Shown here: one piece after another, positions 3,383 to 52,429 of the stretch | Layout: each line of letters starts with the position of its first letter | How positions within the stretch are numbered: the stretch's first letter is position 1 | Origin: Novosphingobium sp. FKTRR1 | GTDB taxonomy: Bacteria; Pseudomonadota; Alphaproteobacteria; Sphingomonadales; Sphingomonadaceae | Assembly (NCBI RefSeq): GCF_020404405.1 | Contig: NZ_JAIZDA010000003.1 | Location: 310,001-374,000 of the forward strand | DNA: 64,000 bases | Reading direction: 5' to 3' | The notes under the pieces: model-generated | What the model saw: the letters and a program-made list of their open reading frames with translations, nothing else | Told to the model about the DNA's origin: nothing | Databases searched by the model: none | Made by a program: the position numbers and the translations under genes

Positions 3383-4135
3383 ATGCGACATGAATCAACA
3401 AGCGCGACAATGCTGACGGTCCTGCGACGGCGGCTGCGGCAAGAGGGCTGGACGGCGGCACGGCTCGCTGCGGAACTGCGGGTGGGAGAGGCCACGGTCA
3501 AGCGATGGCTCGCCGGCAAAGGGCTGACGGTCGACCGGATGGAGCGCTTGGCGGGCCTTGCCAGCATGTCCATCGGCGATCTGGCGCGCGAAGCCGAGGA
3601 TACGCCGCTTGGCCTTGCGCGCGAGCTGACGCTGGCACAGGAGCGCGCGCTTTCGGCCGACATTTTCCTGTCTTTTCTGTTCATGGCGATCCTTGCAGGG
3701 GTCCAGCCCGACGAGATTGCGGCTGACTATTCGCTGCCGTCGCGCATGCTCGAAACCGCGTTGCTGAAGCTGGAGCGGCTGGCGCTGGTCGATCGGCTCC
3801 GGCAGGGCAAGGTCAGGCCGCTGGTCGATCGGGCGCTGGTGTTCCGCAAGGCTCCGCTGCGTTCGCTGTTCGAACGACACATGAAGCAACTGTATTTCGA
3901 ACTCGACTATTCCGCGCCGGAAACCGCCTATGCCTCGGAGCTGGTCAAGCTGTCGGATGTCGGCGCGGCGCAACTGGCCGAACTGATCGAGAAGTTGCGC
4001 GGCGAGGTTCAGGCCCTCTCTGACCGGGACCGGGAGACCGCAGTCTTGCCGCGCAAGTGGTACGGAATGCTGGGTGTCATGCGCGAACTGGACATGAGTT
4101 CGGTGCGCGAGGCAGGCTGGCAGATCACCGCATAG
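3383..4135 (+). CDS. HTH (XRE-like) transcriptional regulator
   Basis: This protein of about 250 residues has an N-terminal helix-turn-helix of the XRE/Cro type: TAARLAAELRVGEATVKRWL followed by MSIGDLAREAED. The C-terminal 170 residues look helical and match no ligand domain I recognise. The start is uncertain: ATGs at 3344, 3383 and 3410 are in frame, none with a strong ribosome site. I took 3383 because it leaves a short lead before the HTH. It is transcribed divergently from the amidohydrolase/Coq4/receptor set across about 175 bp, the usual layout for a local regulator. A TTTGCGAA sequence at 3231 in that gap resembles the recurrent motif of this window, but weakly. Confidence 0.72.
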   Translation: MRHESTSATMLTVLRRRLRQEGWTAARLAAELRVGEATVKRWLAGKGLTVDRMERLAGLASMSIGDLAREAEDTPLGLARELTLAQERALSADIFLSFLFMAILAGVQPDEIAADYSLPSRMLETALLKLERLALVDRLRQGKVRPLVDRALVFRKAPLRSLFERHMKQLYFELDYSAPETAYASELVKLSDVGAAQLAELIEKLRGEVQALSDRDRETAVLPRKWYGMLGVMRELDMSSVREAGWQITA

Positions 4136-4211
4136 CCCGAACGGGGTATTTGCTTTCGGCCAATGCGGGTATGGCTTGATCAACACGATAATGAACGGAG
4201 AGTGACCCGCG

Positions 4212-9670: not shown

Positions 9671-9724
9671 AAATTTGCGATGAAGTCAATTTTTTGCGTA
9701 TTCATAAAGTTGAATTTTTGCGCA
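9671..9724. promoter_or_regulatory. Three TTTGCG repeats in a divergent promoter region
   Basis: TTTGCG cores occur at 9674, 9693 and 9717 in the AT-rich gap between two divergent genes. The last two are long matches (AATTTTTTGCGTA, AATTTTTGCGCA) 24 bp apart. The same core recurs in other promoter regions of this window, so it is a candidate operator. Confidence 0.5.
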
Positions 9725-9779
9725 TGAAGCGATACAAGATTGGGGCGAAAGCTTCGTTCGCAAAGCTTGGAGGCTGCCA

Positions 9780-19102: not shown

Positions 19103-19150
19103 TACGCAAACGAGTATTTTCGTATGCACTTGCTATTGGTTTGCGTAGAT
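19103..19150. promoter_or_regulatory. TACGCAAA/TTTGCGTA elements upstream of a TonB receptor
   Basis: TACGCAAA (19103-19110) and TTTTCGTA (19117-19124) form a near-perfect inverted repeat with a 6-base spacer. TTTGCGTAGAT follows at 19140-19150. The latter 11-mer recurs exactly at 33949-33959, upstream of the other complete receptor locus. Confidence 0.55.
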
Positions 19151-22028: not shown

Positions 22029-22111
22029 TGTGCAGGGAAGGGCTTGCGGTAGGCAAGCCATTCGGGCAGATTGCTACGCACAGAAGCCAAAAAACAAGTC
22101 GTCAGGCGCTA

Positions 22112-22133
22112 TTTTCGTATAATGATTCGAAAA
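22112..22133. promoter_or_regulatory. TTTTCG/CGAAAA inverted repeat
   Basis: TTTTCG and CGAAAA flank a 10-base TA-rich spacer (TATAATGATT) 22 bp upstream of the SnoaL start at 22155. The spacer itself resembles a -10 box, so a repressor bound here would cover the promoter. Confidence 0.45.
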
Positions 22134-22154
22134 CGGCTCCGAAAATGTGGGGGA

Positions 22155-25275: not shown

Positions 25276-26072
25276 GCGAGGGTCGCCTGGCGGGGCGCGC
25301 CGCACTGGTCACCGGTGCGGCGGATGGCATCGGACGCGGAATCGCACTCCGCCTTGCGCGCGAAGGGGCGGCAGTGCTGGTCGCTGATGTCGATGCCGTG
25401 CGCGGGCAGGCTGTAGTTGCCGAACTGCAGGCAATGGGCGCGCGCGCTGCGTTCATCGCTTGCGACGTGACGCAGCGTGATCAGGTCACCGGGGCGGTCG
25501 ATGCCTGTGTCGAGGCCTTTGGCGCGATCGATGTGCTCGTCAACAATGCCTATGGCGGCGCAGGGCCGCAGCGCATCGAGAAGAACACCGATGCGCGCTT
25601 CGAAGCGGCACTGAAGATGTGTCTTTATGCCACCAAATGGGCGATGGAGCGTGCGCTTCCACATATGAAGGCGCGGCAGTGGGGGCGGATCATCAACATG
25701 GCATCGCTCAACGGCGTGAACGCGCATATGGGATCGGCGGATTACAACGTCGCCAAGGAGGCGGTGCGCGCCTATTCACGCAGTGCCGCGCGGGAATGGG
25801 CCGGTTACGGAATTTGCGTAAACGTGATCTGCCCGGCTGCGGTTTCGGCAGCATACCGACGCTTTCAGGAAACAGCGCCGGATGTGGCTGCAGCCATCTC
25901 GGCATCCAATCCGATGGGTCGCATGGGCGATCCTGAAGCGGACATCGGCGGTGTGGCGGTATTCCTTGCCAGTGAGGATGCGCGCTATCTGACCGGCAAC
26001 ACCGTGTTTGTCGATGGTGGCGGGCACATCAACGGGGTGCCCTGGACGCCCGATCTTGGTCCGGCCGACTGA
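25272..26072 (+). CDS. SDR-family oxidoreductase
   Basis: This 266-residue classical SDR has TGAADGIGRG, VADVDAVRG, NNAYGG, Ser in NMASLNG, YNVAK and FVDGGGHING near the end. The ATG at 25272 overlaps the CMD stop (ATGA). It is the last gene of the SnoaL-MFS-SDR-CMD-SDR operon and converges on the SDR gene ending at 26109 with 36 bp between them. YNVAK with NPMGRMGDPE resembles a set of SDRs common in sphingomonads. The substrate is not known. Confidence 0.82.
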   Translation: MSEGRLAGRAALVTGAADGIGRGIALRLAREGAAVLVADVDAVRGQAVVAELQAMGARAAFIACDVTQRDQVTGAVDACVEAFGAIDVLVNNAYGGAGPQRIEKNTDARFEAALKMCLYATKWAMERALPHMKARQWGRIINMASLNGVNAHMGSADYNVAKEAVRAYSRSAAREWAGYGICVNVICPAAVSAAYRRFQETAPDVAAAISASNPMGRMGDPEADIGGVAVFLASEDARYLTGNTVFVDGGGHINGVPWTPDLGPAD

Positions 26073-33942: not shown

Positions 33943-33984
33943 TGACGATTTGCGTAGATGTTTATGCCATTTCTAGACGCATAA
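33943..33984. promoter_or_regulatory. Shared TGACGATTTGCGTA element and dyad in the kstD/receptor gap
   Basis: TGACGATTTGCGTA at 33943-33956 is the exact reverse complement of 49715-49728 in the hsaA/hsaC gap. It overlaps TTTGCGTAGAT (33949-33959), identical to 19140-19150. A TTATGC/GCATAA dyad with an 11-base spacer follows (33962-33984). The region separates two divergent transcripts, so it is a likely shared operator. Confidence 0.65.
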
Positions 33985-34073
33985 GCATATCTGTTGCGCA
34001 TAACGTAAAGAAAATATATTGGGCATCTGGATTTTTGGTACGCGCATGGATGGCGCGACCTGCAGGAGAGGAC

Positions 34074-36433
34074 ATGATGAGAAAGCTGTTCGCCACGACC
34101 GCCCTGACGAGCCTGTCGCTTTGTGCGATTCCGGCTTTGGCGCAGGAGACGGCGCAAACCGGGGCTGATGGTGCCTCGACCGGTTCAGGGATCGGTGAAA
34201 TCGTGGTCACCGCGCAAAAGCGCGCAGAGAATATCCAGAACGTGCCAATCGCGATTTCCGCGGTCAGCAGTCAGTTTCTGGAAACGCGGGGAATCACGTC
34301 GATCGATACGCTCGGTTCGATCGCGCCCAACGTGAAGATCGAACGGGCGCCGTCGAACAAGACCATCTCGCAAATCTCCATTCGCGGTTCGGTCACGATC
34401 AACCCGGCGGTCACCTGGGAACCGGCCGTGGGCCTGTATCTCAACGGGGTTTATATCGCCAAGGCGCAAGGCTCGATCTTTGACGTGGCGGATCTGGAGC
34501 GGGTCGAAATCCTGCGTGGCCCGCAAGGCACGCTCTATGGTCGCAACGCGCTGGCCGGCGCGGTGAACCTCGTGCCCAAGATGCCCAGCGGCAAACTGGG
34601 CCTGAAGGCTGAGGCGACGTATGGCAACTACACTACTGGAAGGGCAAGGTGGTACTCGATCTGCCCGCTTTCGGCCCGTTTTCGCTGAAGCTGTCGGGTC
34701 AGGTGCAAAAGCGTGACGGTTTCATCAAGGTCGTCCCCAACCCCTATCCGCAGGCGTTTCTGGCAGGGCCTCCGTCGGGCGACCGGACCAACGATCTCGA
34801 TGGCAAGAGCGCGATGGTGCAGTTGCGCTTCCACCCCGAAGGCAGCGCCTTTACCGCTGATTACATGTTCGATTACAGCAAGTTCGATCAGCGGCCGGAC
34901 TATGCCCAATTGGTGCGGGTGAACAAGAACGGGTTGCCGCAGGACATCTTCGACCCCAATTCGCCCGGTTATGCGTTCGGCGGCGCGTTCTTCCCGCTCA
35001 ACCTCTACGTGAACCCGCAAAGGCAGTCGTCCGCGTCGATCGACGGCAATCCGCTTTACGAACGGTCGCGGACGTATGGCCACGCGCTGACGATGGCGCT
35101 GGATCTGGGTGACGCCACGATCAAGTCGATCACGGCCTACCGCAACCTGAAATGGAGCGACCGGCTCGATCTCGACGGTTCTCCGCTGCCGGTTGCCTAT
35201 ACCGGACGCGATACCAGCTTCTACAGCTGGAGCCAGGAACTGCAGGCGACGGGCAAGGCGCTGGACAACAAGCTGAACTATGTCACCGGCCTGTTCTATT
35301 ATAAGGAAAAGGCCGAAACGCTTGGGCCGCAAAGCTTTTTCGGCGGTGGTTCGGCATTCCAGTCGGACTATGGCTCGCACACCGAGGCATTCGCCGCCTA
35401 TGCACAGGTCGATTACAACCTGACCGACGCCTTCAAGGTTACCGTCGGGGCGCGGTACACGCATGAAAAGAAGGATGTCCGCCGCTATCTGCAGGTGTTG
35501 AACAACCCGGCTACCCCGGCGGTCAACCTGCCTTATGGCTCGGTGCCCGATGCGAAGTACAACAACTTCAGCCCGGCGCTGACATTGGCCTATCAGGCGA
35601 CGCGCGACATCAACTTTTACGCGCGGTTCGCGCAGGGCTTCAAGTCGGGCGGTTTCAATGGCGAAACCAACGATTTCCGCGCGCCGACCGCCGCCTGTCC
35701 CACCGGTGCGATCGAACTGTGCAATCCCTATCGCCCGGAAAAGGTCGACAGTTACGAGATCGGCCTCAAGACCAAGTTCGCCGATGGTCGGGTCATCCTG
35801 AACTTTGCGGCGTTCTGGGACGAGCACAAGGACATCCAGCTTTCGGTGTTCACGGCCAATGGCGCGGCCTCCTCGATCGTGAAGAACGCGGCCAAAGCGC
35901 GCATGCGCGGTCTGGAAATCGAAACCGTGCTGCACCCGGTCGATGCCCTGACGATCAACGGCTCGCTCGCCTTCCTCGACCCCAAATACAAGAGCTATAT
36001 CGAGGCGGTGAACGGCGTTGACACCAACGTGGCCGACAACCGCGCCTTCCCGCATACGCCCAAGACCACCGCGTCGGTCGGCGCGGACTTGCGCGTGGCG
36101 CGCGGTGACTGGGGGCGCCTCAACCTCAATGGCGATCTGAGCTATGTCGCCAGTTACTACACGTTCCCTTATGCGCTGGTGACGGCCAATCCGTCGGACC
36201 AGAATGCCAACAACACCCGGTCGAAGGGGCGCACGATCGTGAACCTGCGTGCGGCGGTATCCGATGTTCCGCTGGGCGGGACCAAGGCCGAGTTCGCGTT
36301 GTGGGTCAAGAACCTGACCAAGGAAAGCAATCCCACCAACTTCATCGACTTCGGTCCCGGCTTTGGTGGTCTGACCGTCGGCTATTTCCCCGATCCGCGT
36401 ACGTACGGCGTCACGGTCGGCGTCAAGTTCTGA
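34074..36433 (+). pseudogene. TonB-dependent receptor with a single-base frameshift
   Basis: Together the two frames encode a receptor of about 786 residues: signal peptide (MMRKLFATTALTSLSLCAIP then ALAQ), plug start GEIVVTAQKRAENIQNVP, YGRNALAGAVNL, then a full barrel ending in YGVTVGVKF. The first frame runs through EATYGNYTT and stops at 34688. The second is in phase from about 34634 (YWKGKVVLDLPAFG). Adding one base near 34632 restores YGNYNYWKGKV, so a 1-bp deletion is the simplest cause. Everything else looks intact, so a recent mutation or a sequencing error is likely. AGGAG lies 5 bases before the ATG at 34074. It diverges from the KstD operon. Confidence 0.8.
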
Positions 36434-38902: not shown

Positions 38903-39568
38903 TCAAAGTTCGACGACCGACAGGATGTGGCTGGCCGCCCCCGGGAACACGTAGTCCAGTTCGAAAACCATGCTCTCGCCAAGCTGGCCTGCGCGGACCA
39001 GATCGGTCTCGACGAATGCCTGCACGCCATTGCTGCCATAGGCATAGCGGCTGCAACTGCCGTACACCGGCGAGGCGTCAAGCCGGGCGTCGATTGCGGC
39101 ATCGCCGCGCCGGGCGCGGTTCAGGCCGATATTGAGCCGTCCCTTGAACGCAGGATCGTTGTCGTTCAGGTCACGCAGGCGCAGGACCACACGCTCCAGT
39201 TCATCGAGAGATTCGAGCAGGAAGCCGAAGTGAAAGCTTGCCTCGAAATCGGTCGCCATCATCGCGCGGTAGGCTTTGACCGCATCGTCTTCGAGAGCGG
39301 TGCCGACCTTGAGCGCGGCATGGATCGCTTCGATCAGTTTCACCTGCGGTTCGGGCAGGGCCGACAGATAGACGATCCCGTCACCCCGCGCGAAATGGCC
39401 GGAATTGACGACAAAGCGATAGAAGTTGCCATTCGGCAGTGGCAGGACTTGCGTTTGCTCCAGTCCCAGCTCCAGCAGCAGCCGCGCGGCCGCCGGCCCG
39501 TCTTCTGCCTGGCCATAGTGAAGGGCAAGGTGTCCCATGCTGAGTTCGGCACCTGAAGCATTGGTCAT
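38903..39568 (-). CDS. Conserved-looking hypothetical protein
   Basis: I do not recognise this 221-residue protein. It has no signal peptide or membrane segment. It starts MTNASGAELSMGHLALHYGQ. HYGQAEDGPAAARLLLELGL and VLPLPNGNFYRFVV hint at a vicinal-oxygen-chelate-like beta-alpha-beta unit. The C-terminal part has VYGSCSRYAYGSNGVQAFVE and ends in ASHILSVVEL. It converges with the DUF1214 gene and diverges from the TIM-barrel gene across 248 bp that carry TTGCGTAA elements. Coding seems real from codon pattern, length and placement. Confidence 0.6.
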   Translation of the reverse strand: MTNASGAELSMGHLALHYGQAEDGPAAARLLLELGLEQTQVLPLPNGNFYRFVVNSGHFARGDGIVYLSALPEPQVKLIEAIHAALKVGTALEDDAVKAYRAMMATDFEASFHFGFLLESLDELERVVLRLRDLNDNDPAFKGRLNIGLNRARRGDAAIDARLDASPVYGSCSRYAYGSNGVQAFVETDLVRAGQLGESMVFELDYVFPGAASHILSVVEL

Positions 39569-39700
39569 ATCGCGGGTTCCTGTCCCATCAATGGCGCCGG
39601 CGTTGCGTGACGATCACCTGCCGGTTTCGGGCGCAAGTCTATCAGCGGGCGTGGGTCGGAACAATAGAGTTAGTGAACACTTACAAGAAAATCACCCATC

Positions 39701-39770
39701 TTGCGTAAAATTTTAAGCAGGTCTGGACGCAATGGTGGGGGAAAGGGTAAAGTGCATAAAATTTTGCGCA
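39701..39770. promoter_or_regulatory. TTGCGTAA and TTTTGCGCA elements in a divergent gap
   Basis: TTGCGTAAAATTTTAA at 39701-39716 and ATAAAATTTTGCGCA at 39756-39770 lie in the 248-bp gap between the hypothetical gene (minus) and the TIM-barrel gene (plus). They face each other as an imperfect inverted pair and carry the core motif seen elsewhere in the window. Confidence 0.5.
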
Positions 39771-39816: not shown

Positions 39817-40638
39817 ATGCAACGCCTTGCCCTCGACCACATCACCGCAATTGACAGCGACCCTTTCGCCCTCACACTTGCGGCCCGTGCTGCGGGCTGC
39901 GATGCTGTTTGCCTGTTCATGCAGCCGATGGACGTGCTGCCCTTGATGCCCACGTTCGACATATACAAGGATTTGGCGGCCCGTCGGGATTTGCAAAGGC
40001 GCATGGACGACCAAGGCGTGGTGCTGGACGTGGCCTATCCGTTCACGCTGGCCGGGCGCACCGAGGTGCAGGACTTCTGCGTGGCCATGGAATGTGCCGC
40101 CGATCTGGATGCCATGCTGCTCAACGTGCTGGTTTATGACCGCGATCCGGCACGCCGGGTCGATCGGTTCGGTGCGTTCTGCGATCTGGCGGCCAGCTTC
40201 GGACACAAGGTCGGTGTTGAGTTCTATCCGCCTTCGCAGGTCGGATCACTGGCGTCGGCGCTCGAACTGGTCCAGACGATCAATCGCCCCGGCGAGGTGG
40301 GTATCAACGCCGATCTGCTTCACCTGATGCGCGCGGGGGAGCGCGTCTCCGATCTGGCAGCGGCGCCAAAAGGGACGATCCTTTATGGCCAGTTAGCCGA
40401 TGGTCCGGCACTGGCACCGGCCAACCTTGACTATGAGGCATCGTCCGAACGTCTGCTGGCCGGGGAAGGCGGCTTCGACCTTGTCGGGTTTGTCCGCGCG
40501 CTGCCCCCAGACTGTCCGCTGAGCGTCGAAATTCCGCGCGATCGCGCGGTAACTGCCGGCGTGTCGCGGGCCGAGCGCGTTGCACTTGCTGTCGATAGTG
40601 TACGTCGCGCAATGGGTTGGAGCACCACGCACGCTTAA
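39817..40638 (+). CDS. Sugar-phosphate isomerase/epimerase-like TIM-barrel protein
   Basis: This 273-residue xylose-isomerase-like TIM barrel has metal-site candidates in VGVEFYPPS (Glu), VGINADLLHLM (Asp, His), ILYGQLADGP and LSVEIPRDR (Glu). It belongs to the same superfamily as the protein at 14044 but is only distantly similar. The ATG at 39817 has a weak ribosome site. It ends at the strong hairpin at 40640. Members isomerise or epimerise polyols and keto-acids; its substrate in this cluster is unknown. Confidence 0.7.
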   Translation: MQRLALDHITAIDSDPFALTLAARAAGCDAVCLFMQPMDVLPLMPTFDIYKDLAARRDLQRRMDDQGVVLDVAYPFTLAGRTEVQDFCVAMECAADLDAMLLNVLVYDRDPARRVDRFGAFCDLAASFGHKVGVEFYPPSQVGSLASALELVQTINRPGEVGINADLLHLMRAGERVSDLAAAPKGTILYGQLADGPALAPANLDYEASSERLLAGEGGFDLVGFVRALPPDCPLSVEIPRDRAVTAGVSRAERVALAVDSVRRAMGWSTTHA

Positions 40639-42807: not shown

Positions 42808-44259
42808 TCAGGCGGCGGCTTTGCGGCCTGCCTGTCGGCCGAAGAACGTGCAGTCGGCAAGGCTCATGCCCGACGAATAGCCATGCCCCCAAGCGGGCAG
42901 GCCCGAGGTGCAGCGCCCTGCTGCAAACAGGCCGGAGATAGGCTGCCCGGCGCGGTTCAACACTTCGCCATCGGTCGATGTCTTCAAGCCACCCAGCGTG
43001 AAGAAGCTGAAATAGCTCGTCTCGAAATTGAGTTCGAGCGCCACGAACGGTGCCTGATCGAGCGGTTTCAGGATCGGCGGCTGCTTGTCGAACAGCGGAT
43101 CGCTGCCGTTGCGGGCGTGCGCGTTGTAGACCGCCATGGTGGCGGACAACGTGCCTGCGGGCATTTCAAGCTCCGCCTCGACTTCTTCCCACGTCGCGCC
43201 GGTTGCGGCGATGGTGATTCCGGCCAGATCGAGCGGCTGAACGAAGTGCGCGACGTCAAGCAGCAGGTAGACTTTGCCGCCCGGCTGGTCGACCGCGCAA
43301 CGGCTGACGCGACCGTGATAGCAGTCCTCGTTGATGAACCGCTGGCCTTGCACGTTGACGAAAACGCCATAGGCGTGGCTTTCGGGCATGGTCCAGGGGC
43401 AGGTGGTGAAGAACTGGTCCATGTGGATGGCATCGCCGCCCACCGAAACGCCCAGTTCGATGCCGATACCGTCATCCTTGTCGCCGATCGGGCTGTTCAC
43501 CCGGAAGCTGTCGGGGCAGTACTTTCGCCGCATCGCCTCGTTGAACACGAAGCCACCGGTGGCCAGCACCACGCCCTTTTCCGCCTTCACGAAGCGGTTC
43601 TGGTTGTCGATGCGCACAATCGCACCGACGATCCGGTCACCGTCGGTGATCAGCGCCGTGGCGCGGGCATCGATGTGGATGTCGGTGCCAAGATCGCGCG
43701 CGCGCGCCTCCAGAATATCGACCAGCGGTCGCCCACCGCCCCAGCCCATGTGCTGGATCACATGGCCGCGCGGTGCCGGTTTGGCCTTGTGGCAGAACGG
43801 TGCTGCGGCTTCGCTGCCTGAAAAGATCAGGGTTGAATCATCGGTCGGCTCGATGTGCTTTCCGGGCAGGAAGTTGCCGCGATAGGGCACGCCCTGATCC
43901 TTGAGCCACTGGTAGTGGTTGAGGGCCTCCCGGCCATAAAGCTCGCATTTGGCATCATCTGCGCAAGGTCCACCGGCCAGCTTGAGGTATGTGGTGAAAT
44001 CTTCGACGGTATCGTCGAAACCGGCGGCCTTCTGTACGTCGGTGCCCCCGCCGACATAGATCTCGCCACCGGAAAGGGCCGACGCGCCACCGCTGCCCGA
44101 ACTGCGTTCGAACAGCATGACCCGCGCGCCGGCATTGCGCGCCTCGATCGCGGCGCAGGCCCCCGTCGCCCCGAAGCCGATCACGGCGACATCGGTCTCG
44201 AAGTCCCAGCCCGGCACTTCAGCAACGGGGAAGGGGTGGTAAAGCGACACCTCGGTCAT
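42808..44259 (-). CDS. 3-ketosteroid dehydrogenase-like FAD flavoprotein
   Basis: This 483-residue flavoprotein has VAVIGFGATGACAAIEARNAG, LFERSSGSGGA and the family motif SGGEIYVGGGT, followed by GVVLATGGFVFNEAMRRKYC and the C-terminal FAD segment GLFAAGRCTSGL. It belongs to the KstD superfamily; delta1-dehydrogenation of a 3-ketosteroid makes the 9-hydroxy compound open ring B. Placement in the hsa operon supports this, but delta4-type enzymes look alike. The ATG at 44259 follows GGAGAG. It is shorter than typical KstD (about 510-570) and differs clearly from the one at 32102. Confidence 0.78.
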   Translation of the reverse strand: MTEVSLYHPFPVAEVPGWDFETDVAVIGFGATGACAAIEARNAGARVMLFERSSGSGGASALSGGEIYVGGGTDVQKAAGFDDTVEDFTTYLKLAGGPCADDAKCELYGREALNHYQWLKDQGVPYRGNFLPGKHIEPTDDSTLIFSGSEAAAPFCHKAKPAPRGHVIQHMGWGGGRPLVDILEARARDLGTDIHIDARATALITDGDRIVGAIVRIDNQNRFVKAEKGVVLATGGFVFNEAMRRKYCPDSFRVNSPIGDKDDGIGIELGVSVGGDAIHMDQFFTTCPWTMPESHAYGVFVNVQGQRFINEDCYHGRVSRCAVDQPGGKVYLLLDVAHFVQPLDLAGITIAATGATWEEVEAELEMPAGTLSATMAVYNAHARNGSDPLFDKQPPILKPLDQAPFVALELNFETSYFSFFTLGGLKTSTDGEVLNRAGQPISGLFAAGRCTSGLPAWGHGYSSGMSLADCTFFGRQAGRKAAA

Positions 44260-44318
44260 GCAAATGCTCTCCTGCGGCGCCGCCCTGTCGTTTGCGGGGC
44301 TGGCGCGAAATCGTCGGG

Positions 44319-45359
44319 TCAGGCCTGTTGCGCTTTCAGCATGTCCAACGCGACGTCCACGATCATGTCTTCCTGTCCGCCGACCATCTTGCGACGGCCA
44401 AGCTCGACAAGGATGGTGCGGGTATCGAGCCCATAAGTCTCCGCCGCCTTTTCGGCATGGCGCAGGAAGCTGGAGTAGACCCCGGCATAGCCCAGCGCGA
44501 GCGTTTCGCGGTCGACGCGGACCGGACGATCCTGCAGCGGGCGCACCAGATCTTCGGCGGCATCCATCAGCGCCATCACGTCGCACCCGTGGTTCCAGCC
44601 TTTGCGGTCGGCGGCGGCGATGAACACTTCAAGCGGAGCATTGCCCGCGCCTGCACCCATGCCGGTAAGGCTGGCGTCGATCCGTACGGCGCCGCATTGC
44701 GCCGCGACGATGGAGTTGGCCACGCCCAGCGCCAGGTTGTGGTGCGCGTGCATGCCGCGCTGGGTTTCGGGCTTGAGCACCCGGTCATAGGCTTCAAGCC
44801 GCGCCCGCACGCCGTCCATGTCCAATGCGCCGCCGCTGTCGGTCACATAGACGCACTGCGCGCCATAGCTTTCCATCAGTAGCGCCTGCTGCGCCAGCAG
44901 TTCGGGCTCGATCATGTGGCTCATCATCAGGAAGCCCGCCACGTCCATCCCCAGATCGCGGGCGATGCCGATGTGCTGGCGCGAAACGTCGGCTTCGGTG
45001 CAGTGGGTCGCGACCCGCACCGATCGAACCCCGATGTCATAGGCGCGGCGCAGTTCCTCGACCGTGCCCAGACCCGGCAGGATAAGCGTTGTCAGCACGC
45101 TGTTTTCCAGCACTTCGGCAACCGCTTCCAGCCATTCCCAGTCGGTGTGTGCGCCAAAGCCGTAGTTGAAGCTGGTACCCGACAAGCCATCGCCGTGGGC
45201 CACCTCGATCGCGTCCACGCCCGCCTTGTCGAGCGCAGCGGCGATCGCCTTGACGTGATCGATCCCGTACATGTGACGGATGGCGTGCATGCCATCGCGC
45301 AAGGTGACGTCCTGAATGTAAAGCTTGTCGCCCGCTTCCACGTTGAAGGTCGAGGTCAT
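44319..45359 (-). CDS. hsaF: 4-hydroxy-2-oxoacid aldolase, HsaF type
   Basis: This 346-residue DmpG/BphI/HsaF aldolase splits 4-hydroxy-2-oxohexanoate into pyruvate and propanal. R21-D22 ([11 protein letters not shown]) and H204/H206 (GMHAHHNLA) are the catalytic Arg and metal ligands. The C-terminal communication domain ([20 protein letters not shown]) that docks on the dehydrogenase is present. The ATG overlaps the stop of the aldehyde dehydrogenase gene by 4 bp, matching the usual channelled pair. In steroid degraders it handles the ring-A fragment released by HsaD. Confidence 0.92.
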
Positions 45360-46303
45360 TGTGCGGTCTCCACGGCGGCGGCCATGCGGCGTGCGGCAAG
45401 CAGTTCGCCGGTCGCCTTGGCGGCAGCGGTCATGATGTCGAGATTGCCCGAATAGCTGGGCAGGTAATCACCCGCGCCTTCGACTTCGAGCAGGATCATG
45501 GTCTTGATCCCGGTGAATTCGCCTTGCCCCGGAATCTTCAGCTTGGTGTTGTCGCCATAGCGCTCAAACTGCACTTCCTGTTTCAGGCGATAGCCGGGGA
45601 CATAGGCCTGCACTTTGGCGACCATGTCCTTGACCGACTGGCGAATGGCGTCCTCGTCAGCGCCTTCGGACAGGGTGAACACCGTATCGCGCATGATCAT
45701 CGGTGGTTCGGCCGGGTTGAGGATGATGATCGCCTTGCCGCGCGTTGCGCCGCCGACCTGCTCGATGGCGCGCGCCGTGGTGCGGGTGAATTCGTCGATG
45801 TTGGCACGGGTGCCGGGGCCCGCCGAGCGCGACGAGACCGAAGCCACGATCTCGGCATAGTGGACCTTGGCCACCTGGCTGACGGCGGCGACCATCGGGA
45901 TCGTCGCCTGTCCGCCGCACGTCACCATGTTGACATTGGATGCGCCAAGATTGGCTTCCATGTTGACCGGCGGCACGATGAACGGACCGATCGCGGCCGG
46001 GGTCAGGTCGACAACCTGAATGCCGTCGGCGCGCAAGGCCGCATCGTGGACTTTGTGCGCATAAGCCGACGTGGCGTCGAAGGCGATGCCGATTTCGGGA
46101 TAGAGCGGATGGGCGCGCAGCCCTTCGAGCCCTTCGTGCGTCGTGGCGATGCCATGTTCGCGGGCCATGGCCAGACCCTCGGAGGCGGGATCGATCCCGA
46201 CCACGATCGCCAGTTCCATGTTCTGGGGGTATTTGATCATCTTCATCATGAGATCGGTGCCGATATTGCCCGATCCGATGATTGCGGCCTTTATGCGTGC
46301 CAT
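45356..46303 (-). CDS. hsaG: Acylating acetaldehyde/propanal dehydrogenase, HsaG type
   Basis: This 315-residue BphJ/DmpF/HsaG enzyme oxidises the aldolase product to acyl-CoA. The NAD motif is [13 protein letters not shown] (residues 7-19), the catalytic Cys is C129 in [12 protein letters not shown], and the tail has [20 protein letters not shown]. The ATG at 46303 is 11 bp after the hydratase stop; the longer upstream frame is not needed. It is coupled to hsaF by a 4-bp overlap. Propanal to propionyl-CoA is the expected reaction for the steroid fragment. Confidence 0.92.
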
Positions 46304-46314
46304 TGCAGCAGTCC

Positions 46315-47103
46315 TTACACGAAGTTGGCGACGCACGTGCCCAACGGGCCGGTATCGTCGCTCAAGGTCATTTCGAAGCGATCGCCCTTTGCCGCCGGGG
46401 CCAGCGGAACGAGACTGCCCGACAGGATCACGTCCCCGGCATCGAGCGTCACGCCATAGGCGCCGAGCGTGTTGGCGAGCCACGCCACTGCCTGCGCAGG
46501 ATCACCCTGAACGGCGTGGCCGTATCCTTCGGACAAGGGCTCGCCATTCCTGGTCACCGCGACGTGCAGGTTGGGCAGGTCCAGTCCGGCCGGATCGAGA
46601 CGCTCTTTGCCGACCACGTACACACCGCAGGACGCATTGTCGGACACTGTGTCGACGATGCCGATCTTCCAGTCGGCGATACGGCTGTCGACGATCTCGA
46701 AACAGGGAGCAATGGAGGCGGTGGCCGCCAGCACATCGGCTGCGGTCACACCCGGACCGTTGAGGCTGCTTTTCAGGATGAAGGCGATCTCCGCCTCGGC
46801 GCGCGGCGCGATCAGCGCCTTGCCGTCGATATCGATATCGCCGTCAACCTGCATCCAGTCGGTCAGGAAACCGAAATCGGGTTGGTGCACCCCGAGCATG
46901 TCCTGCACCGCCTTGCTGGTGACGCCGATCTTCTTGCCGACGATCCGTTCGCCATCGGCCAGGCGACGCGACAGGAAGTTCAGGCTGATTGCATAGGCAT
47001 CATCGATGGTGAGCGCCGGGTCCTGCTGGATCAGCGGTTGCAACGTATGCCGTTGGCGCAGTGCGCGATACAAGGCGCCACCAAAATCTTCGGCTTTGCT
47101 CAC
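46315..47103 (-). CDS. hsaE: 2-hydroxypenta/hexa-2,4-dienoate hydratase, HsaE type
   Basis: This 262-residue member of the MhpD/BphH/HsaE group adds water to 2-hydroxyhexa-2,4-dienoate to give 4-hydroxy-2-oxohexanoate. Family segments are [18 protein letters not shown], the metal-site region [19 protein letters not shown] and [14 protein letters not shown]. The start is GTG at 47103, overlapping the HsaB stop. It stands between HsaB and HsaG genes, the expected pathway neighbours. Sequence alone does not separate steroid from aromatic hydratases; the operon does. Confidence 0.9.
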
Positions 47104-47594
47104 AGATAGGCCCCGTCCTGATAGATGAGTGGCGCAACGGTCTCGCTGACTTGCGCCTCAAGCACGCGCGCGATCACGATGCTGTGGGTGCCATAGGCCA
47201 GCATCGCATCGACCACGCAGCGCAAGTTGGCCTGTGCCTCATCCAGCAAGGGCAAGCCATTGAGCCCGGTGCTCCACGTGCCGACCTTGAAGCGTTCGCT
47301 GCGCGGAACGCCGCCGCCAAAGGCTGCCGATACGGCCTGCTGGTGGCGGGACAGCAAGTTGACCGACAGCGGTGCCGTCGGTTCGAGCAGGGCATGCAGG
47401 CTGGTCGCGCGGTTGACGCAGACCAGCACGGCCGGCGGATCGACGGTCAGCGAGGTGATCGAAGTCGCAGCCATCCCGACCGGACCGTCCGCACCTTGCG
47501 CGACCACGATTGCGACCGACGCTGCCAGCCGGCGCATCGCCGCGCGAAACACCGCTGGCAGGGTATCAGGGTTAAGCGGATACCCTTCAGCCAT
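47100..47594 (-). CDS. hsaB: Flavin reductase component, HsaB type
   Basis: This 164-residue flavin reductase of the HpaC/HsaB family has FRAAMRRLAASVAIVVA, MAATSITSLTVDPPAVLVCV and LSVNLLSRHQQAVSAAFG. It supplies reduced flavin to the HsaA oxygenase using NADH. The ATG at 47594 overlaps the HsaD stop by 8 bp. The conserved GxH near the C-terminus reads AYGTHSIVIARV. Position between hsaD and hsaE in a complete hsa operon makes the assignment firm. Confidence 0.88.
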   Translation of the reverse strand: MAEGYPLNPDTLPAVFRAAMRRLAASVAIVVAQGADGPVGMAATSITSLTVDPPAVLVCVNRATSLHALLEPTAPLSVNLLSRHQQAVSAAFGGGVPRSERFKVGTWSTGLNGLPLLDEAQANLRCVVDAMLAYGTHSIVIARVLEAQVSETVAPLIYQDGAYL

Positions 47595-48411
47595 TGAGAA
47601 AATCGATCGCATAAGCGTTGAATTCGGCTGCGCGCTCCACCTGCACCCAGTGGCCGGTGCGGCCAAACGTGACGGTACGCACATCGCTGCAGTGATCGAG
47701 GAACAGCCGTGAATGTGCTTCAGGACAGAATTCGTCGTTCAGACCCCACAACACGAAGATCGGCTTGTCGATTTCGCCAAGACGCGGCGAAAGATCGGGC
47801 GTGCGCATCCGTACCAGCACGTCCTTGGGCTGGGTGCGCGCAACGGCAAAGCGTTCCTCGACCAAAGCATCGGTGACGTTGGGCGCGAAGTCCGGGTGCA
47901 CCAGATTGGACACCAGCCGCTTCTGTTCGGCCAGATTGAAGTCCGGTCCGCCGAAGTTGGACACCATCTTGGCGATGCCGGGCATGACGAAATAGCTTTC
48001 GCGTTCGGCCACGCAGCCCGGCGCCATCAGCACCAGTTTGTCGGAAAATTCGGGATGGTCCAGCGTCAGCAACAAGGCGATCCCGCCGCCCAGCGAATTG
48101 CCGACCAGATGCGCCTTGCTCACGCCGTGCTGGCGCAGGGCATCGTAAACCGTATTGGTGAACAATTGCAGCGTGTAATCAATGCCTTCCGGCTTTGATG
48201 ACGCGCCATAACCGATCAGGTCGGGCAGGATCACGCGGTATCCGGCTTGTGCGAATGCCGCGATGTTGCCGCGGAAGTTCGATGCGCCCGATGCCCCCGG
48301 CCCGCTGCCGTGCAGGAATACAACCGCCGGGCCTGCCGGATCGCCAGCCTCGCTCACATGGATGTCGTAGCCGCCCGCAACACGATAGGTTGCCTGCCGA
48401 AGTTCAGTCAT
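47587..48411 (-). CDS. hsaD: Meta-cleavage product hydrolase HsaD
   Basis: This 274-residue alpha/beta hydrolase cleaves the carbon-carbon bond of 4,5:9,10-diseco-steroid (DSHA), releasing the five-ring-carbon dienoate and the HIP moiety. The triad is S106 (GNSLGGG), D226 (GLNDEF) and H254 (TGHWVQVER), and the oxyanion segment is HGSGPGASGASNF. Length is normal for the MCP-hydrolase family. It is translated between hsaA (13 bp away) and hsaB (8-bp overlap). Biphenyl-type hydrolases are close relatives, so the steroid call leans on the operon. Confidence 0.9.
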   Translation of the reverse strand: MTELRQATYRVAGGYDIHVSEAGDPAGPAVVFLHGSGPGASGASNFRGNIAAFAQAGYRVILPDLIGYGASSKPEGIDYTLQLFTNTVYDALRQHGVSKAHLVGNSLGGGIALLLTLDHPEFSDKLVLMAPGCVAERESYFVMPGIAKMVSNFGGPDFNLAEQKRLVSNLVHPDFAPNVTDALVEERFAVARTQPKDVLVRMRTPDLSPRLGEIDKPIFVLWGLNDEFCPEAHSRLFLDHCSDVRTVTFGRTGHWVQVERAAEFNAYAIDFLNG

Positions 48412-48424
48412 GCCTCAGACCTCA

Positions 48425-49639
48425 TCAAAGGAACGTGAAGGTTGGCGCCTGACCCAGTATCCCGCCGACCAGATCGGTCGTGCGGTTGTTCGGATCGTTA
48501 GCCACGTGCGCACGACCGGCGTTGAGATCGAGCCAGGGCTGGATGATCGCGCTGGAGGTGTAGATCGCCCGACCGCCCAGCAACTGCACCATGTCATCGA
48601 CAAGATCGGCCATGCGGCGCACGACGGTGGCGGAATTGTAGGCAAACAGCGTGCGCTTCTCCATCGGGATCGGTTCCCCCCGGTTCGCATAAGCCATCAG
48701 GTCGTCAAAGGTCAGACGCAGGGTCTGCTCCATCTCGACCACTTGCGCGTGCGCCTTCGAGATCGCCGCGAGCAGGAAGGGATCGCTTTTCGACGCCTTG
48801 CCGGTGTTCGTCGAAACGCGGCTTTGCGCGATGTCGATGGCGGCATTGATCGCCGCGCGTGCGCCCCCGAATGCGGCGGTCGAGACCGAGCGCATGAACA
48901 CTTGCGCCCAAGGCAGCGTGTACAGCGCGCCGGTATTGGTCTGCTGGCCGGGGTTCCGGCAGAGGAAACCATCGATCGAGCGGTGCGTGCGATGGGCAGG
49001 CACGAACACGTCGTCCACGATCACGTCGTGGCTGCCGGTGCCTTGCAGGCCAAAGACATGCCAACTGTCGAAGTCGATCGTATAATCGCTGCGCGGCAGC
49101 AGAAACGCCCGCATATCGGGTGCACCACCCTGTTCAGCAGGCGGGACCAGCGCGCCGAGCACGACCCATTGGCAATGGACCGAGCCGGTGGAAAAGCCCC
49201 AGCGGCCCGACAGGCGGAAGCCGCCATCCACCACCGTCACCTTGCCGACCGGCTGATAGCTTGAGGATACCAGGGTCGAGGCATCGTCACCCCAGACTTC
49301 GGCCTGCGCTTCTTCATGGAACAGCGCGATCTCGTAAGGGTGGCAGCCGACCACGCCGTACATCCAGCCGGTGGACATGCAGCCTTCGGCCAAAGCCTTC
49401 TGCACATCGTAAAAGGCGTTGGGATGCATTTCATAGCCGCCCCAGCGCTTGGGCTGGAGGATCCTGAAGAAGCCCGCCTCCTGCATCTCGGCGATAGACT
49501 CGGCCGGAACATCGCGCTCGGCCACGCATTTGCGGGCTCGCTCCTTGAGCGTGGGGACCATCGCGCGGGCGCGATCAAGCAACTGCCCGGGGGTGGGGAT
49601 GCTGATCTCCGCAACTGGCAAAGTGGCTGCGCTGGCCAT
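48425..49639 (-). CDS. hsaA: 3-HSA hydroxylase oxygenase component HsaA
   Basis: This 404-residue flavin-dependent monooxygenase of the acyl-CoA-dehydrogenase fold hydroxylates the phenolic ring of 3-hydroxy-9,10-seco-androstatriene-dione at C4, with reduced flavin from HsaB. Segments are LQPKRWGGYEMHP, GWMYGVVGCHPYEIALF, GRWGFSTGSVHCQW, LQGTGSHDVIVDDVFVP and the tail DLNAGRAHVANDPNNRT. The ATG at 49639 follows GGGAGAAAACGAAG. It leads the minus operon across a 203-bp gap from the hsaC operon. Length matches the 394-residue Mycobacterium enzyme. Confidence 0.9.
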   Translation of the reverse strand: MASAATLPVAEISIPTPGQLLDRARAMVPTLKERARKCVAERDVPAESIAEMQEAGFFRILQPKRWGGYEMHPNAFYDVQKALAEGCMSTGWMYGVVGCHPYEIALFHEEAQAEVWGDDASTLVSSSYQPVGKVTVVDGGFRLSGRWGFSTGSVHCQWVVLGALVPPAEQGGAPDMRAFLLPRSDYTIDFDSWHVFGLQGTGSHDVIVDDVFVPAHRTHRSIDGFLCRNPGQQTNTGALYTLPWAQVFMRSVSTAAFGGARAAINAAIDIAQSRVSTNTGKASKSDPFLLAAISKAHAQVVEMEQTLRLTFDDLMAYANRGEPIPMEKRTLFAYNSATVVRRMADLVDDMVQLLGGRAIYTSSAIIQPWLDLNAGRAHVANDPNNRTTDLVGGILGQAPTFTFL

Positions 49640-49681: not shown

Positions 49682-49714
49682 CTTGCTGCTCGCGTAATTT
49701 GAATTGCCATGTGG

Positions 49715-49728
49715 TACGCAAATCGTCA
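49715..49728. promoter_or_regulatory. TACGCAAATCGTCA element between hsaA and hsaC operons
   Basis: This 14-mer is identical (reverse-complemented) to 33943-33956 in the kstD/receptor gap and contains the TACGCAAA core found upstream of several other units. It sits near the middle of the divergent promoter region, where one regulator could control both core operons. Confidence 0.6.
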
Positions 49729-49842
49729 ATTGAAAAGCTATACGGCTTTCGATATGTGCAAATTCGAATCCGCTGCGGAATGAATTTCAAGTGCGGCGAT
49801 GGTGGGAGAACGGGCCCCGTGACGGGCATAGGAAACACGGAT

Positions 49843-50598
49843 ATGTCGATTGACCTTGCGGGGCGGGTGGCCATCGTCACCGGCGGCACCCGCGGGCTTG
49901 GCGCGCGCATCGCGCTGGCGCTGGTCCAGGCCGGGGCGCGCGTGATCGTGTGCGGTCGCAATCGTCCCGACGACCTGCCGGCGGGTATGGACTTTCATGC
50001 CGTCGACGTGCGCGATGCCGAACAGGCCAAGGCCTTTGTCGACGCGGTGGCGCGCGATCACGGGCGGCTGGACATTCTGGTGAACAATGCGGGTGGTTCA
50101 CCACAAGCCGCCGCCGCCACGGCCTCGCCACGCTTCTTCGACGCGATCCTGAAGCTGAACCTGCATTCGGCGATGTATCTGTCACAGGCTGCATATCCGC
50201 ACTTGCTGGCAGCAGGCGGCGCAAGCATCGTCAACATCGCCAGCGTTTCGGGCATCCGCCCCTCGCCGATGACCGCCGCTTATGGTGCGGCCAAGGCCGG
50301 GCTGCTCAGCCTGACGCAAAGCCTCGCCCAGGAATGGGGACCGGACGGCATCCGCGTCAACGCGATCATCGTCGGGCTGATGCAGACCGAGACCAGCGAC
50401 GAGACTTATGGCGACGAGGCCGCGCAGGCCGCCGTTGCGCGTTCGCTGCCGCTGCAGCGCATGGGGCGCGGCGACGATGTAGCCGGGGCCGTGCTGTGGC
50501 TGTGTTCGGGTCTTGCGTCATGGGTAAGCGGTGCGCGCATCAACGTCGATGGCGGCGGCGAGCGACCCTACTTCCTCGATCTTGTGAAAGGAAACTGA
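49843..50598 (+). CDS. SDR-family oxidoreductase at the head of the hsaC-ipd operon
   Basis: This 251-residue classical SDR has TGGTRGLGARI, VCGRNRPDD (Arg suggests NADP), NNAGGSPQ, Ser in NIASVSG, YGAAK and INVDGGGERPYF. The ATG at 49843 follows AGGAAACACGGAT. It is the first gene of the long plus operon, 5 bp before hsaC, which points to the hydroxy/keto chemistry of a seco-steroid or a CoA-bound ring C/D intermediate. The exact step is unknown; several actinobacterial steroid clusters also have such SDRs. Confidence 0.8.
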   Translation: MSIDLAGRVAIVTGGTRGLGARIALALVQAGARVIVCGRNRPDDLPAGMDFHAVDVRDAEQAKAFVDAVARDHGRLDILVNNAGGSPQAAAATASPRFFDAILKLNLHSAMYLSQAAYPHLLAAGGASIVNIASVSGIRPSPMTAAYGAAKAGLLSLTQSLAQEWGPDGIRVNAIIVGLMQTETSDETYGDEAAQAAVARSLPLQRMGRGDDVAGAVLWLCSGLASWVSGARINVDGGGERPYFLDLVKGN

Positions 50599-50603
50599 AG
50601 GCC

Positions 50604-51551
50604 ATGGGCATCAAGGCTCTCGGCTATGTCGTGATCACGACGGCCAAACAGGCGGAATGGGACCGCTTTTTGACGCAAGTCGTCGGCGTGATGGCCGCCG
50701 GCCACACCCCGGATGGCGCGGCACTGTACCGGATCGACGACCGGCCGTTCCGCTTTCGGATCGAAGCTGGAGCCGACGAGCGGCTGTTTGCCGCCGCTTA
50801 CGAAGTGGACGACGCTGCCGAACTTGAGGCGCTGCGCGCGCAGATCGTCGCGCTGGGCCGACCGGTCGTGGCTGGAACCGCCGACGAGGCCGCGGGGCGC
50901 GGCGTTGCTGCGTTCTTCCGCACGAGCGACCCGGCGGGCAATGGGCTTGAGTTCTTCCACGGTGATCGCCGCGATGATGTCGCGTTCGTCTCGCCAGCGG
51001 GGGTAAGCGGTTTCGTCACCGGCGAAATGGGCATGGGCCACGCGGTGTTCGCCGCGCCCAACTTCGACGAGACTTATGCCTTCTACAAGGCCATCGGATT
51101 TGGCGACACCGACGTGCCGCGCTTCCATTTCAGCGATGATCCGAACGATCCGGGCATGGGCTTTGCCTTCATGCACGCGCGCAATGGCCGGCATCATTCG
51201 GTCGCGCTCGGGCAGATGCCGGTTCCACCTTCGGGCTGCGTCCATCTGATGCTCGAGATGAAGACGCAGAGCGACGTGGGCAAATGCCATGACCGCATGC
51301 GGTTGAACAAAGTGCCGGAAAGCGCCTCGATCGGTCGGCATGTCAATGACCAGACGTTCGGCTTCTACATGCAGACCCCGTCGGGTTTCGACCTTGAGAT
51401 CGGTGCCGATCCGCTGGTCATCGATCCGGTGACATGGGTGCCGACCGCCCATCTTCAGCCGAGCGAGTGGGGGCATGTCTGGGCTTGGCAGAAAGCCATG
51501 GAAGAACAGGCGGCGCAGCAAGAACAAGCCTCACAAGGAGAAAAGGCGTGA
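50604..51551 (+). CDS. hsaC: Extradiol dioxygenase HsaC
   Basis: This 315-residue type I extradiol dioxygenase opens the catecholic ring A of 3,4-DHSA between C4 and C5. The two-domain VOC layout is intact and the Fe(II) ligands are H146 (GMGHAVF), H214 (GCVHLMLE) and E265 (GFDLEIG). The tail after residue 290 is rich in Gln and Ala. The ATG at 50604 has a weak site 5 bp after the SDR stop. The IpdA GTG overlaps its stop. Ligand positions match those of the Mycobacterium enzyme, as I remember them, within a residue or two. Confidence 0.92.
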   Translation: MGIKALGYVVITTAKQAEWDRFLTQVVGVMAAGHTPDGAALYRIDDRPFRFRIEAGADERLFAAAYEVDDAAELEALRAQIVALGRPVVAGTADEAAGRGVAAFFRTSDPAGNGLEFFHGDRRDDVAFVSPAGVSGFVTGEMGMGHAVFAAPNFDETYAFYKAIGFGDTDVPRFHFSDDPNDPGMGFAFMHARNGRHHSVALGQMPVPPSGCVHLMLEMKTQSDVGKCHDRMRLNKVPESASIGRHVNDQTFGFYMQTPSGFDLEIGADPLVIDPVTWVPTAHLQPSEWGHVWAWQKAMEEQAAQQEQASQGEKA

Positions 51552-52429
51552 CACTCGACAAGCGGATGAGCGCGGCCGAGGTCGTCGCGCAATTGTCCGA
51601 CGGCATGACACTCGGCATTGGCGGGTGGGGGCCGCGGCGCAAGCCGATGGCGCTGGTGCGCGAAATCCTGCGGTCCGATCTGAAGGATCTGACGATTGTG
51701 GCCTATGGCGGCGCGGATGTCGGCATGCTGTGCGCGGCGGGAAAAGTGCGCAAGGTGGTGTTCGCCTTCGTGTCGCTGGATGCGATCCCGCTTGAGCCAT
51801 GGTTCCGCAAGGCCCGCGAGACTGGCCAGATCGACGTCCTCGAACTGGACGAGGGCATGTTCCAATGGGGCCTGAAGGCGGCTGCGTTCCAGTTGCCGTT
51901 CCTGCCGACGCGGGTCGGGCTGGGCACCGACCTTGCCGAACTTGGCGGGCTCAAAACGGTGCAAAGCCCCTATGCCGATGGCGAAACCCTGATCGCCATG
52001 CCCGCGCTGCGGCTCGATGCGGCGCTGATTCACGTCAACCGCAGCGACTGGCGCGGTAACGTGCAGGTGTTCGGGCCAGACGTCTATTACGACGAATGGT
52101 TCGCCCGAGCCGCCACCAAGTCCTTCGTCAGTTGCGAGGAACTGGTCGACCGGATGGAAGACCATTATCCCGACAATGCGCAGGCCAACCTGTTCGAGCG
52201 CTGCTTCGTTTCGGGTGTGGTCGAACTGCCGTCCGGCGCCCATCCCAGCTCGATGCCGCCGCACTATGGCTGGGACATGAAGGCGTTCAAGGCTTACGCC
52301 GACGCCGCGCGCGATCCGGGCGACTGGAATGCGGTCAAGGACCGCTTCGTCGGGGCGACCGAGGCCGATTATCTTGCAACTTTTGGCGGAAAGGAGGCGG
52401 TCGCGGCTTTGCCGCTGCCGATTTTCTGA
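51548..52429 (+). CDS. ipdA: IpdA, alpha subunit of the ring-C hydrolase (CoA-transferase fold)
   Basis: This 293-residue class I CoA-transferase-like alpha subunit belongs to IpdAB, which in steroid degraders hydrolyses the last ring of COCHEA-CoA rather than moving CoA. It has MTLGIGGWGPRRKPMALVRE and LDEGMFQWGLKAAAFQLPF, with E102 as the likely catalytic Glu (E105 in Mycobacterium). The GTG at 51548 has AAGGAG eight bases upstream and overlaps the hsaC stop. The next gene, ipdB, starts at its last base, so the subunits are made in equal amounts. Confidence 0.9.
   Translation: MTLDKRMSAAEVVAQLSDGMTLGIGGWGPRRKPMALVREILRSDLKDLTIVAYGGADVGMLCAAGKVRKVVFAFVSLDAIPLEPWFRKARETGQIDVLELDEGMFQWGLKAAAFQLPFLPTRVGLGTDLAELGGLKTVQSPYADGETLIAMPALRLDAALIHVNRSDWRGNVQVFGPDVYYDEWFARAATKSFVSCEELVDRMEDHYPDNAQANLFERCFVSGVVELPSGAHPSSMPPHYGWDMKAFKAYADAARDPGDWNAVKDRFVGATEADYLATFGGKEAVAALPLPIF

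Follow-up and report, generated by a model that had tools for sequence, protein, structure and literature searches.

Sphingomonads break down steroid hormones and bile salts. In actinobacteria, the steroid regulon is served by a single operator, read by the TetR-type regulators KstR and KstR2, and the core of the KstR site is AACnnGTT. The pathway-specific steroid regulators of Comamonas, TeiR and TesR, belong to the LuxR family, as stated in the accessible portion of PMC6895838. For N. tardaugens, that same portion reports that neither a TeiR-like gene nor another regulator is located close to the core steroid cluster, and its transcriptome data indicate that testosterone induces the SD cluster only slightly. 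The estrogen repressor of Caenibius tardaugens, EdcR, is a TetR-type protein that recognizes the palindrome TnnCnnTACnAnTnGTAnnGnnA, which overlaps the promoter (PMC8700777, accessible text), and a separate progesterone (pdc) cluster of C. tardaugens carries one TetR and one LuxR gene (PMC12239570, accessible text). Regarding bile-salt genes, the available part of PMC12882949 mentions AraC and TetR candidate regulators. It also describes two contiguous Lrp/AsnC genes of Sphingobium sp. Chol11, situated within the bile-salt cluster, which it relates to amino acid metabolism and for which that part names no operator. This paper, as far as its text is accessible, is the only one we found in which an AsnC pair is connected with a steroid cluster; two others that mention AsnC deal, judging by their titles, with different topics.

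In this study, we analyzed a stretch of 64,000 nucleotides from Novosphingobium sp. FKTRR1, hereafter the window, together with related genomes. The operator described below resembles that of EdcR, as far as the latter is described in the accessible text, in belonging to a sphingomonad steroid cluster and in overlapping a promoter, and differs from it in palindrome and protein family; no match to TnnCnnTACnAnTnGTAnnGnnA within 1 mismatch exists in the window. The KstR/KstR2 systems also use one operator per steroid regulon, but AACnnGTT is not enriched here (10 occurrences in the window vs 7.0 expected; 18 of 100 shuffles reach 10). Hence, the view that the site differs from those of KstR holds in the window, and extends to EdcR. 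A search of the main text of openly accessible articles returned no earlier account of this operator and none of an Lrp/AsnC pair acting in steroid control. Among the matches listed for "operator" literature containing TTTGCGTA, none dealt with steroid genes by title.

Results

A conserved dyad upstream of hsaA

A preliminary description of the window had pointed to a 14-mer shared by two divergent promoter regions, and the window search returned TACGCAAATCGTCA exactly at 49715-49728 (plus strand) and 33943-33956 (minus strand), the two copies being reverse complements. With up to two mismatches, the window contains 2 matches vs 0.34 expected (4 of 100 shuffles reach 2), and no exact copy other than these two occurs in the entire 4.98-Mb genome. 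The 8-base core TACGCAAA is present six times in the window vs 0.78 expected, a count that none of 100 shuffles reaches (Table 1). As for the core positions given in the preliminary description, 19103 and 19140 are exact copies, 9691 is really 9693, and 26884 and 39701 are one-mismatch copies. The core had also been placed always in gaps between genes, which is correct for five of the six exact copies in the window; the exception, 25813, had been overlooked. This copy (TTTGCGTA, 25813-25820) lies within the called gene 25272-26072, and a partner half-site at 18 bp is absent.

Table 1. Coordinates of the genes, operators and motif copies considered in this study.
Feature	Position	Strand	Details
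Exact core TACGCAAA	9693, 19103, 19140, 25813, 33949, 49715		Window matches
One-mismatch core TTTTTGCGTG	26884		
One-mismatch core CTTGCGTA	39701		
hsaA operator	49686..49725	-	Half-sites 49715-49720 (TGCGTA) and 49691-49696 (TACGCG); gap 18; PWM 25.8
TonB-receptor operator variant	33946..33986	+	TGCGTA 33951-33956, GACGCA 33976-33981; gap 19; score 28.5
Operator between SDR (8741-9628) and SnoaL-like (9780-10346) genes	9690..9729	+	PWM 25.5
Operator between TonB-type receptor (19406-21895) and SnoaL-like (22155-22625) genes	22109..22148	+	PWM 28.3
Weaker operator between 38903-39568 and 39817-40638	39697..39736	+	Second half GACGCA; PWM 10.2
Half-site cluster before receptor 19406-21895	19103..19147		TACGCAAA at 19103, TTTGCGTA at 19140
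Putative hsaA -35 box TTGACG	49724..49729	-	Overlaps operator edge
TTGAC of the SDR 8741-9628 promoter	9685-9689	-	20 bp beyond operator centre
Xre-type regulator gene	3410..4135	+	
SDR gene	8741-9628	-	
SnoaL-like gene	9780-10346	+	
TonB-type receptor gene	19406-21895		
SnoaL-like gene	22155-22625		
Flavoprotein gene, PRK07121 family	32102-33871	-	734 bits, above cut-off; ~103 bits vs KstD model PRK12844
TonB-dependent receptor gene	34074..36433	+	Site 33946 lies before it
Divergent gene pair	38903-39568; 39817-40638	-; +	
hsaA, oxygenase subunit gene	48425..49639	-	NF045629, E 3.1e-109, 365 bits, below cut-off 450
Short-chain dehydrogenase (SDR) gene	49843..50598	+	Heads plus-strand run to which a CoA transferase gene (51566) also belongs
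Own Lrp/AsnC pair 1	A C37:257095-257568; B C37:256598-257089		~53 kb left of window; sites 256499, 260026
Own Lrp/AsnC pair 2, diverged	C37:252379-253409 (L124:2379-3409)		Site 253625, weak (13.6)

Motif discovery by EM, run de novo with six settings on 22 gaps of the window, yielded no coherent motif; the larger motif emerged from cross-species comparison. In a survey of hsaA, 80 loci with HsaA relatives were fetched and 70 were kept, leaving out L052, whose start is cut by the contig end, and nine loci with an HsaA identity of 44-48% (L073-L080, L082), which contain no matrix site above 10. TGCGTA (once TGCGCA) followed by TACG was found upstream of hsaA in 69 of the 70 loci, and also in the window. 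The only failure, L033, lacks TACG and still scores 22.4 with the matrix. In the 70 sequences made up of the 69 loci and the window, the gap of the dyad is 18 bp in all except L068, where it is 19 bp, and TTGAC is intact in 68. The consensus of the hsaA sites reads TTGACGATTTGCGTA-N18-TTACGAATG; their alignment A2 omits L020, which was gapped by MAFFT.

The spacing of the dyad is fixed. When T(G/T)CGTA and TACG(A/C)A pairs with gaps of 4-39 were counted in 81 sequences (1.516 Mb), 72 inverted pairs occurred at gap 18, one at gap 19 and none at any other gap, and the comparison orientations gave 8 direct and 15 everted pairs. Thirteen of the 72 gap-18 pairs are distinct from the hsaA site, several of them sharing the divergent region upstream of hsaA. 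The operator takes the form of an inverted repeat, TTTGCGTA-N18-TACG(C/A)AA, with a putative TTGAC -35 box overlapping its left half. Because TTGAC adjoins the edge of the dyad upstream of hsaA, the 14-mer amounts to one half-site plus the overlapping -35 box; it is the outer half of a larger operator and not an operator by itself.

A position weight matrix was built from 40 non-redundant sites, none contributed by the own genome. Across loci L003-L082 and L092-L109, some of which are copies of one genome, 138 of the 140 sites scoring above 14 fall between genes as called by a codon-usage script. The neighbors of the sites, named through matches to genes of the window or of L090, comprise hsaA, SDR genes, KstD, a KshA-type oxygenase (KshA_C, E 4e-56), the flavoprotein at 42808, TonB receptors and an acyl-CoA dehydrogenase.

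Sites and genes in the window

The hsaA operator sits in the divergent region between hsaA, which heads a run of minus-strand genes (42808-49639), and the SDR gene. It is the latter, and not hsaC as previously named, that lies to the right of 49715. The label "KstD operon" for the genes beside 33943 is doubtful as well, in view of the model scores of 32102-33871; a better KstD match is L090:11285-12997, which starts 8.7 kb left of the window and reaches 497.5 bits with PRK12844 (cut-off 789). The operator variant before the TonB-dependent receptor is a partial match to our sequence profiles. This receptor gene shows a frame break at about 34646-34649 (tblastn with the relative in L009, frame change at residue 187), reflecting either a pseudogene or a sequence error. 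In the half-site cluster at 19103..19147, a canonical 18-bp dyad is absent. The operator between 38903-39568 and 39817-40638 has counterparts in L017 and L018, located between the orthologues of these two genes. The protein of 38903-39568 matches no Pfam family, and its gene is a candidate unknown steroid gene.

Specificity of the operator in the genome

The window alone contains four matrix sites above 10 in 64 kb (22109, 49686, 9690 and 39697). We defined a steroid region of 159.5 kb, consisting of the window and 95.5 kb of the same contig (L090, L091, L123-L125), and a control of 20 stretches of the own genome (341.6 kb), three of which are contigs of about 0.5 kb. The matrix found 13 sites in the steroid region vs none in the control (binomial p 3.4e-7), in a comparison that is not blind because L090 was picked by profile match and L123-L125 by their AsnC genes. 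When the gap was shifted by 1-6 bases, the steroid region retained 0-3 matches and the control 0-1. All but one of the 13 sites lie between called genes, L125:9650 being within a gene. In this comparison, the sites are concentrated in the steroid region. Moreover, the exact pattern TKCGTA-N18-TACGMA occurs a single time in the whole genome, at C37:301142; this site is 8.9 kb to the left of the window, in the promoter region from which an SDR gene and a KstD gene diverge.

Sequence profiles were less informative. Genome-wide, all matches of profile R1 fall in C37:301140-359724, at five places, three of which are circular because R1 was trained with three window sites. Profile R2, built without own sites, recovered only C37:343947, and a second R2 search gave no match at E 1, probably through the loss of weak matches. 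Our conclusions therefore rest on the matrix and on the exact pattern.

One operator had been proposed for uptake, dehydrogenase and Hsa/Ipd genes. Conservation, placement and specificity support this for uptake, dehydrogenase and Hsa genes, while the matrix detects no separate Ipd site in 51197-51566. For the Ipd genes, such control is suggested only by their position in the plus-strand run starting at 49843. Altogether, we consider it very likely that the operator is real, and conclude that it belongs to a sphingomonad steroid regulon. The contrary reading, that the 14-mer is a conserved piece of promoter or a product of chance with no specific regulator behind it, draws on the -35 box that it includes. 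It is hardly credible, given that a second half-site is present at a constant distance of 18 bp, that the -35 box is positioned differently in other promoters and that the control stretches are empty.

An Lrp/AsnC gene pair that accompanies the pathway

Two contiguous Lrp/AsnC genes, here A and B, adjoin sites in L055, L059 and L096. Our genome encodes two such pairs (Table 1), and second pairs similar to its own are found in L128, L130 and L176. The own A/B pair is not adjacent to the hsa operon. Upstream of A, on the same strand, L124:7774-9912 encodes a flavoenzyme like the bile-acid enzyme BaiCD (407 bits, cut-off 825), preceded by an operator at L124:10026.

The AsnC-type N-terminal HTH domain (PF13404) was found above cut-off in all four proteins (pair 1, A 1.3e-12 and B 1.2e-13; pair 2, 3.4e-12 and 1.1e-10), and the Lrp/AsnC ligand domain (PF01037) was matched in A (5.9e-13), B (5.8e-09) and the second gene of pair 2 (2.4e-06); the first gene of pair 2 has no PF01037 match at 0.001. 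Among the relatives of A with solved structures are Lrp (2gqq) and AsnC (2cg4). A siroheme decarboxylase identity (AhbA/B, NirDL) was considered and rejected, PF22451 giving B 20 bits with a cut-off of 27 and not listing A. Thus, A and B are like E. coli Lrp and AsnC in their HTH and ligand domains; unlike them, they are two contiguous, diverged members, associated with steroid rather than amino-acid genes and with an operator of fixed 18-bp gap. Conservation in B (28 sequences including second pairs) is 0.85 in the recognition-helix region, 0.77 in the whole HTH and 0.54 in the rest, whereas in A (25 sequences) the contrast is small (0.72, 0.67 and 0.62, respectively). Two considerations count against this pair as reader of the operator: HTH conservation is general within the Lrp/AsnC family, and half-sites 24 bp apart are widely spaced for a single Lrp dimer.

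The distribution of the pair was followed in two sets of genomes that share only the own genome. In the first set (61 genomes, the own and 60 relatives), close relatives of A are present in nine, and the eight others besides our own are all operator-positive by R2. R2 also matches three genomes without A, namely G045, G051 and G057; these matches were counted as chance because L098 and L100 have no steroid neighbors and L101 has no called genes beside its site. In the second set (119 genomes of the family), the genomes that carry A at E 1e-25 or better are the 12 that have a true HsaA, and no others (Fisher p 1e-16, relatedness ignored), where the presence of A depends on that threshold and true HsaA means E <1e-180, a cut chosen after a gap in the list had been seen. 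Three further genomes have only a weak HsaA (1e-102 to 1e-108), and A is absent from them. A and B are contiguous in the 12 HsaA genomes, B coming directly after A, and likewise in 9 of 9 in the first set. By genome-wide pattern count, 11 of the 12 HsaA genomes contain the exact operator, with 34 places in total, vs 5 places in the other 107; our count for the reversed control pattern is 4 and 42 places, respectively. The co-occurrence of A and HsaA may mirror the pathway rather than the operator.

Proximity was also compared. Of the 26 A/B pairs, 15 have a site above 10 no more than 400 bp away, compared with 27 of 120 other adjacent same-strand pairs in these loci (p 7e-4); once L055, L059 and L134, where the pair was first noticed, are set aside, the figure is 12 of 23 pairs (p 0.009). 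We regard this as modest support. Speaking against the link, stretches of 15-16 kb at the G117, G131 (C1:4.02 Mb) and G144 pairs showed no site. In G144 the exact operator is absent, and L062, probably the contig of this genome, has TGCGCA-N18-TACGCA before hsaA. The A protein of G117 is only 37% identical, and this genome has a single exact operator, separated by 3.5 Mb of contig from its hsaA.

Co-occurrence was examined for four candidates, namely AsnC-A, an Xre-type, a LuxR-like and one TetR-like protein. The Xre-type gene at 3410-4135 could be the reader of a real operator, leaving to the AsnC pair the control of something else in the pathway. Its relatives occur in nine of the 119 genomes, all of them among the 12 with HsaA and none among the other 107, and in G071 a relative directly follows the AsnC pair. 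Yet, at E 1e-15, Xre is missing from G093, G116 and G176 despite their 3, 2 and 2 exact operators, and we consider this reading quite unlikely; a role of the Xre gene as a second-tier steroid regulator is possible.

Even less probable, to the point of being very unlikely, is an activator of the TeiR/TesR type, for which the candidate in our genome would be L090:13006-14139. This frame of 377 aa has a C-terminal HTH and by its position resembles a steroid regulator of the LuxR type. Such regulators exist (PMC6895838, accessible portion), and in the pdc cluster of C. tardaugens a LuxR gene rises 3-fold on progesterone, according to the accessible text of PMC12239570. The candidate comes after KstD and has relatives in 10 of the 12 HsaA genomes; however, these are also found in 19 of the 107 genomes without true HsaA (29 of 119 overall) and are absent at E 1e-15 from the operator-bearing G093 and G176. 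Furthermore, the location of the hsaA site over the core promoter is poor for an activator, and the assignment to LuxR is a weak one (GerE match at E 0.016, under the cut-off). TeiR and TesR are activators of another family than A and B, and the LuxR-like relative here does not track the operator.

The TetR-like gene, a label assigned by eye, has relatives in 5 of the 12 HsaA genomes and in none of the 107 others, and is absent from the remaining 7, with a query that lacked the N-terminal 41 residues (whole frame 3651-4370). At the threshold used, G093 (3 exact operators) and G176 (2) lack the LuxR-like, Xre and TetR-like proteins alike. A regulator encoded elsewhere, or from another family, would be compatible with an AsnC-operator link that is correlative and only modest in its proximity part, and with a comparison of four candidates; the 12 of 12 co-occurrence and the excess proximity of the AsnC pair render it unlikely, less so than either the Xre or the LuxR reading.

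We infer binding by A and B from their co-occurrence with the pathway, the proximity of sites, the conservation of the B helix and the absences of the rivals, the operator itself being observed. On these sequence-based grounds, the operator would define a regulon of steroid catabolism in Sphingomonadales, most likely bound by the contiguous Lrp/AsnC pair, a reading that we hold to be probable.

Promoter geometry

At hsaA, TTGAC can be read as a -35 box followed, 17 bp on, by a weak extended -10 (TGnCA); this reading is our own, and scanning with the sigma-70 consensus gave no promoter there. With these elements, the dyad would span the promoter from -35 to about +1. Among 128 non-redundant sites, 74 exact TTGAC were counted, with 26 at offset -24 from the operator centre (24 of them hsaA), 4 at -2 and 8 at +20; the next offset is +63 with 3. 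The gene downstream of the +20 group is on the right strand in all eight cases, which include four KstD orthologues and 8741-9628, and the -2 group corresponds to TonB-receptor promoters wherever the downstream gene was seen. A looser test, allowing one mismatch to TTGACA in 103 sites (into which the hsaA site L018:9843 slipped), again gave 8 at +20, with a mean of 0.98 per offset, along with 3 at -24, 4 at -2, 5 at +24 and 4 each at -54, -35 and +26. The +20 peak is kept, but the others are not clearly so. Given that the -2 group consists of TonB receptors and half of the +20 group of KstD orthologues, the phasing stands on few independent promoters. A 22-bp phasing of the -35 boxes, about two helical turns, is thus suggestive only.

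Discussion

The constancy of the operator across hsaA promoters invites a proposal on its mode of action. With the dyad at hsaA read as covering the promoter, RNA polymerase would be occluded there, and in the absence of steroid a complex of A and B would block it at promoters of the hsaA type. Binding of a pathway intermediate to the C-terminal domains would relieve this block. At promoters with the site on the upstream side of the -35 box, as in the +20 group, the complex may instead activate, or a wrapped complex may act, and steps of 22 bp would hold it on one face of the helix. A and B would probably form a mixed oligomer in which B reads TGCGTA. In addition, the sites beside many A/B gene pairs suggest that the regulator genes may be under feedback. 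The effector, the oligomer and the sign of control in this proposal are taken from the general behavior of Lrp/AsnC proteins. The slight induction of the SD cluster in N. tardaugens (PMC6895838, accessible portion) counts against the proposed regulon control. A two-protein Lrp/AsnC complex acting as the master switch of steroid catabolism in Sphingomonadales, in which B reads DNA, A modulates, and repression or activation depends on the position of the -35 box, is a tentative and somewhat doubtful model. The Lrp/AsnC genes of the Chol11 bile-salt cluster, likened here by their description in the accessible part of PMC12882949, are probably the same kind of pair as A and B.

An operator together with a paired regulator that tracks the pathway would answer the regulator gap reported for N. 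tardaugens in the accessible portion of PMC6895838. It would permit the prediction of regulons in uncharacterised genomes, point to unknown genes of the pathway and of uptake, and supply parts for steroid biosensors. With an operator and a candidate pair in hand, the control of steroid catabolism in sphingomonads becomes directly testable.
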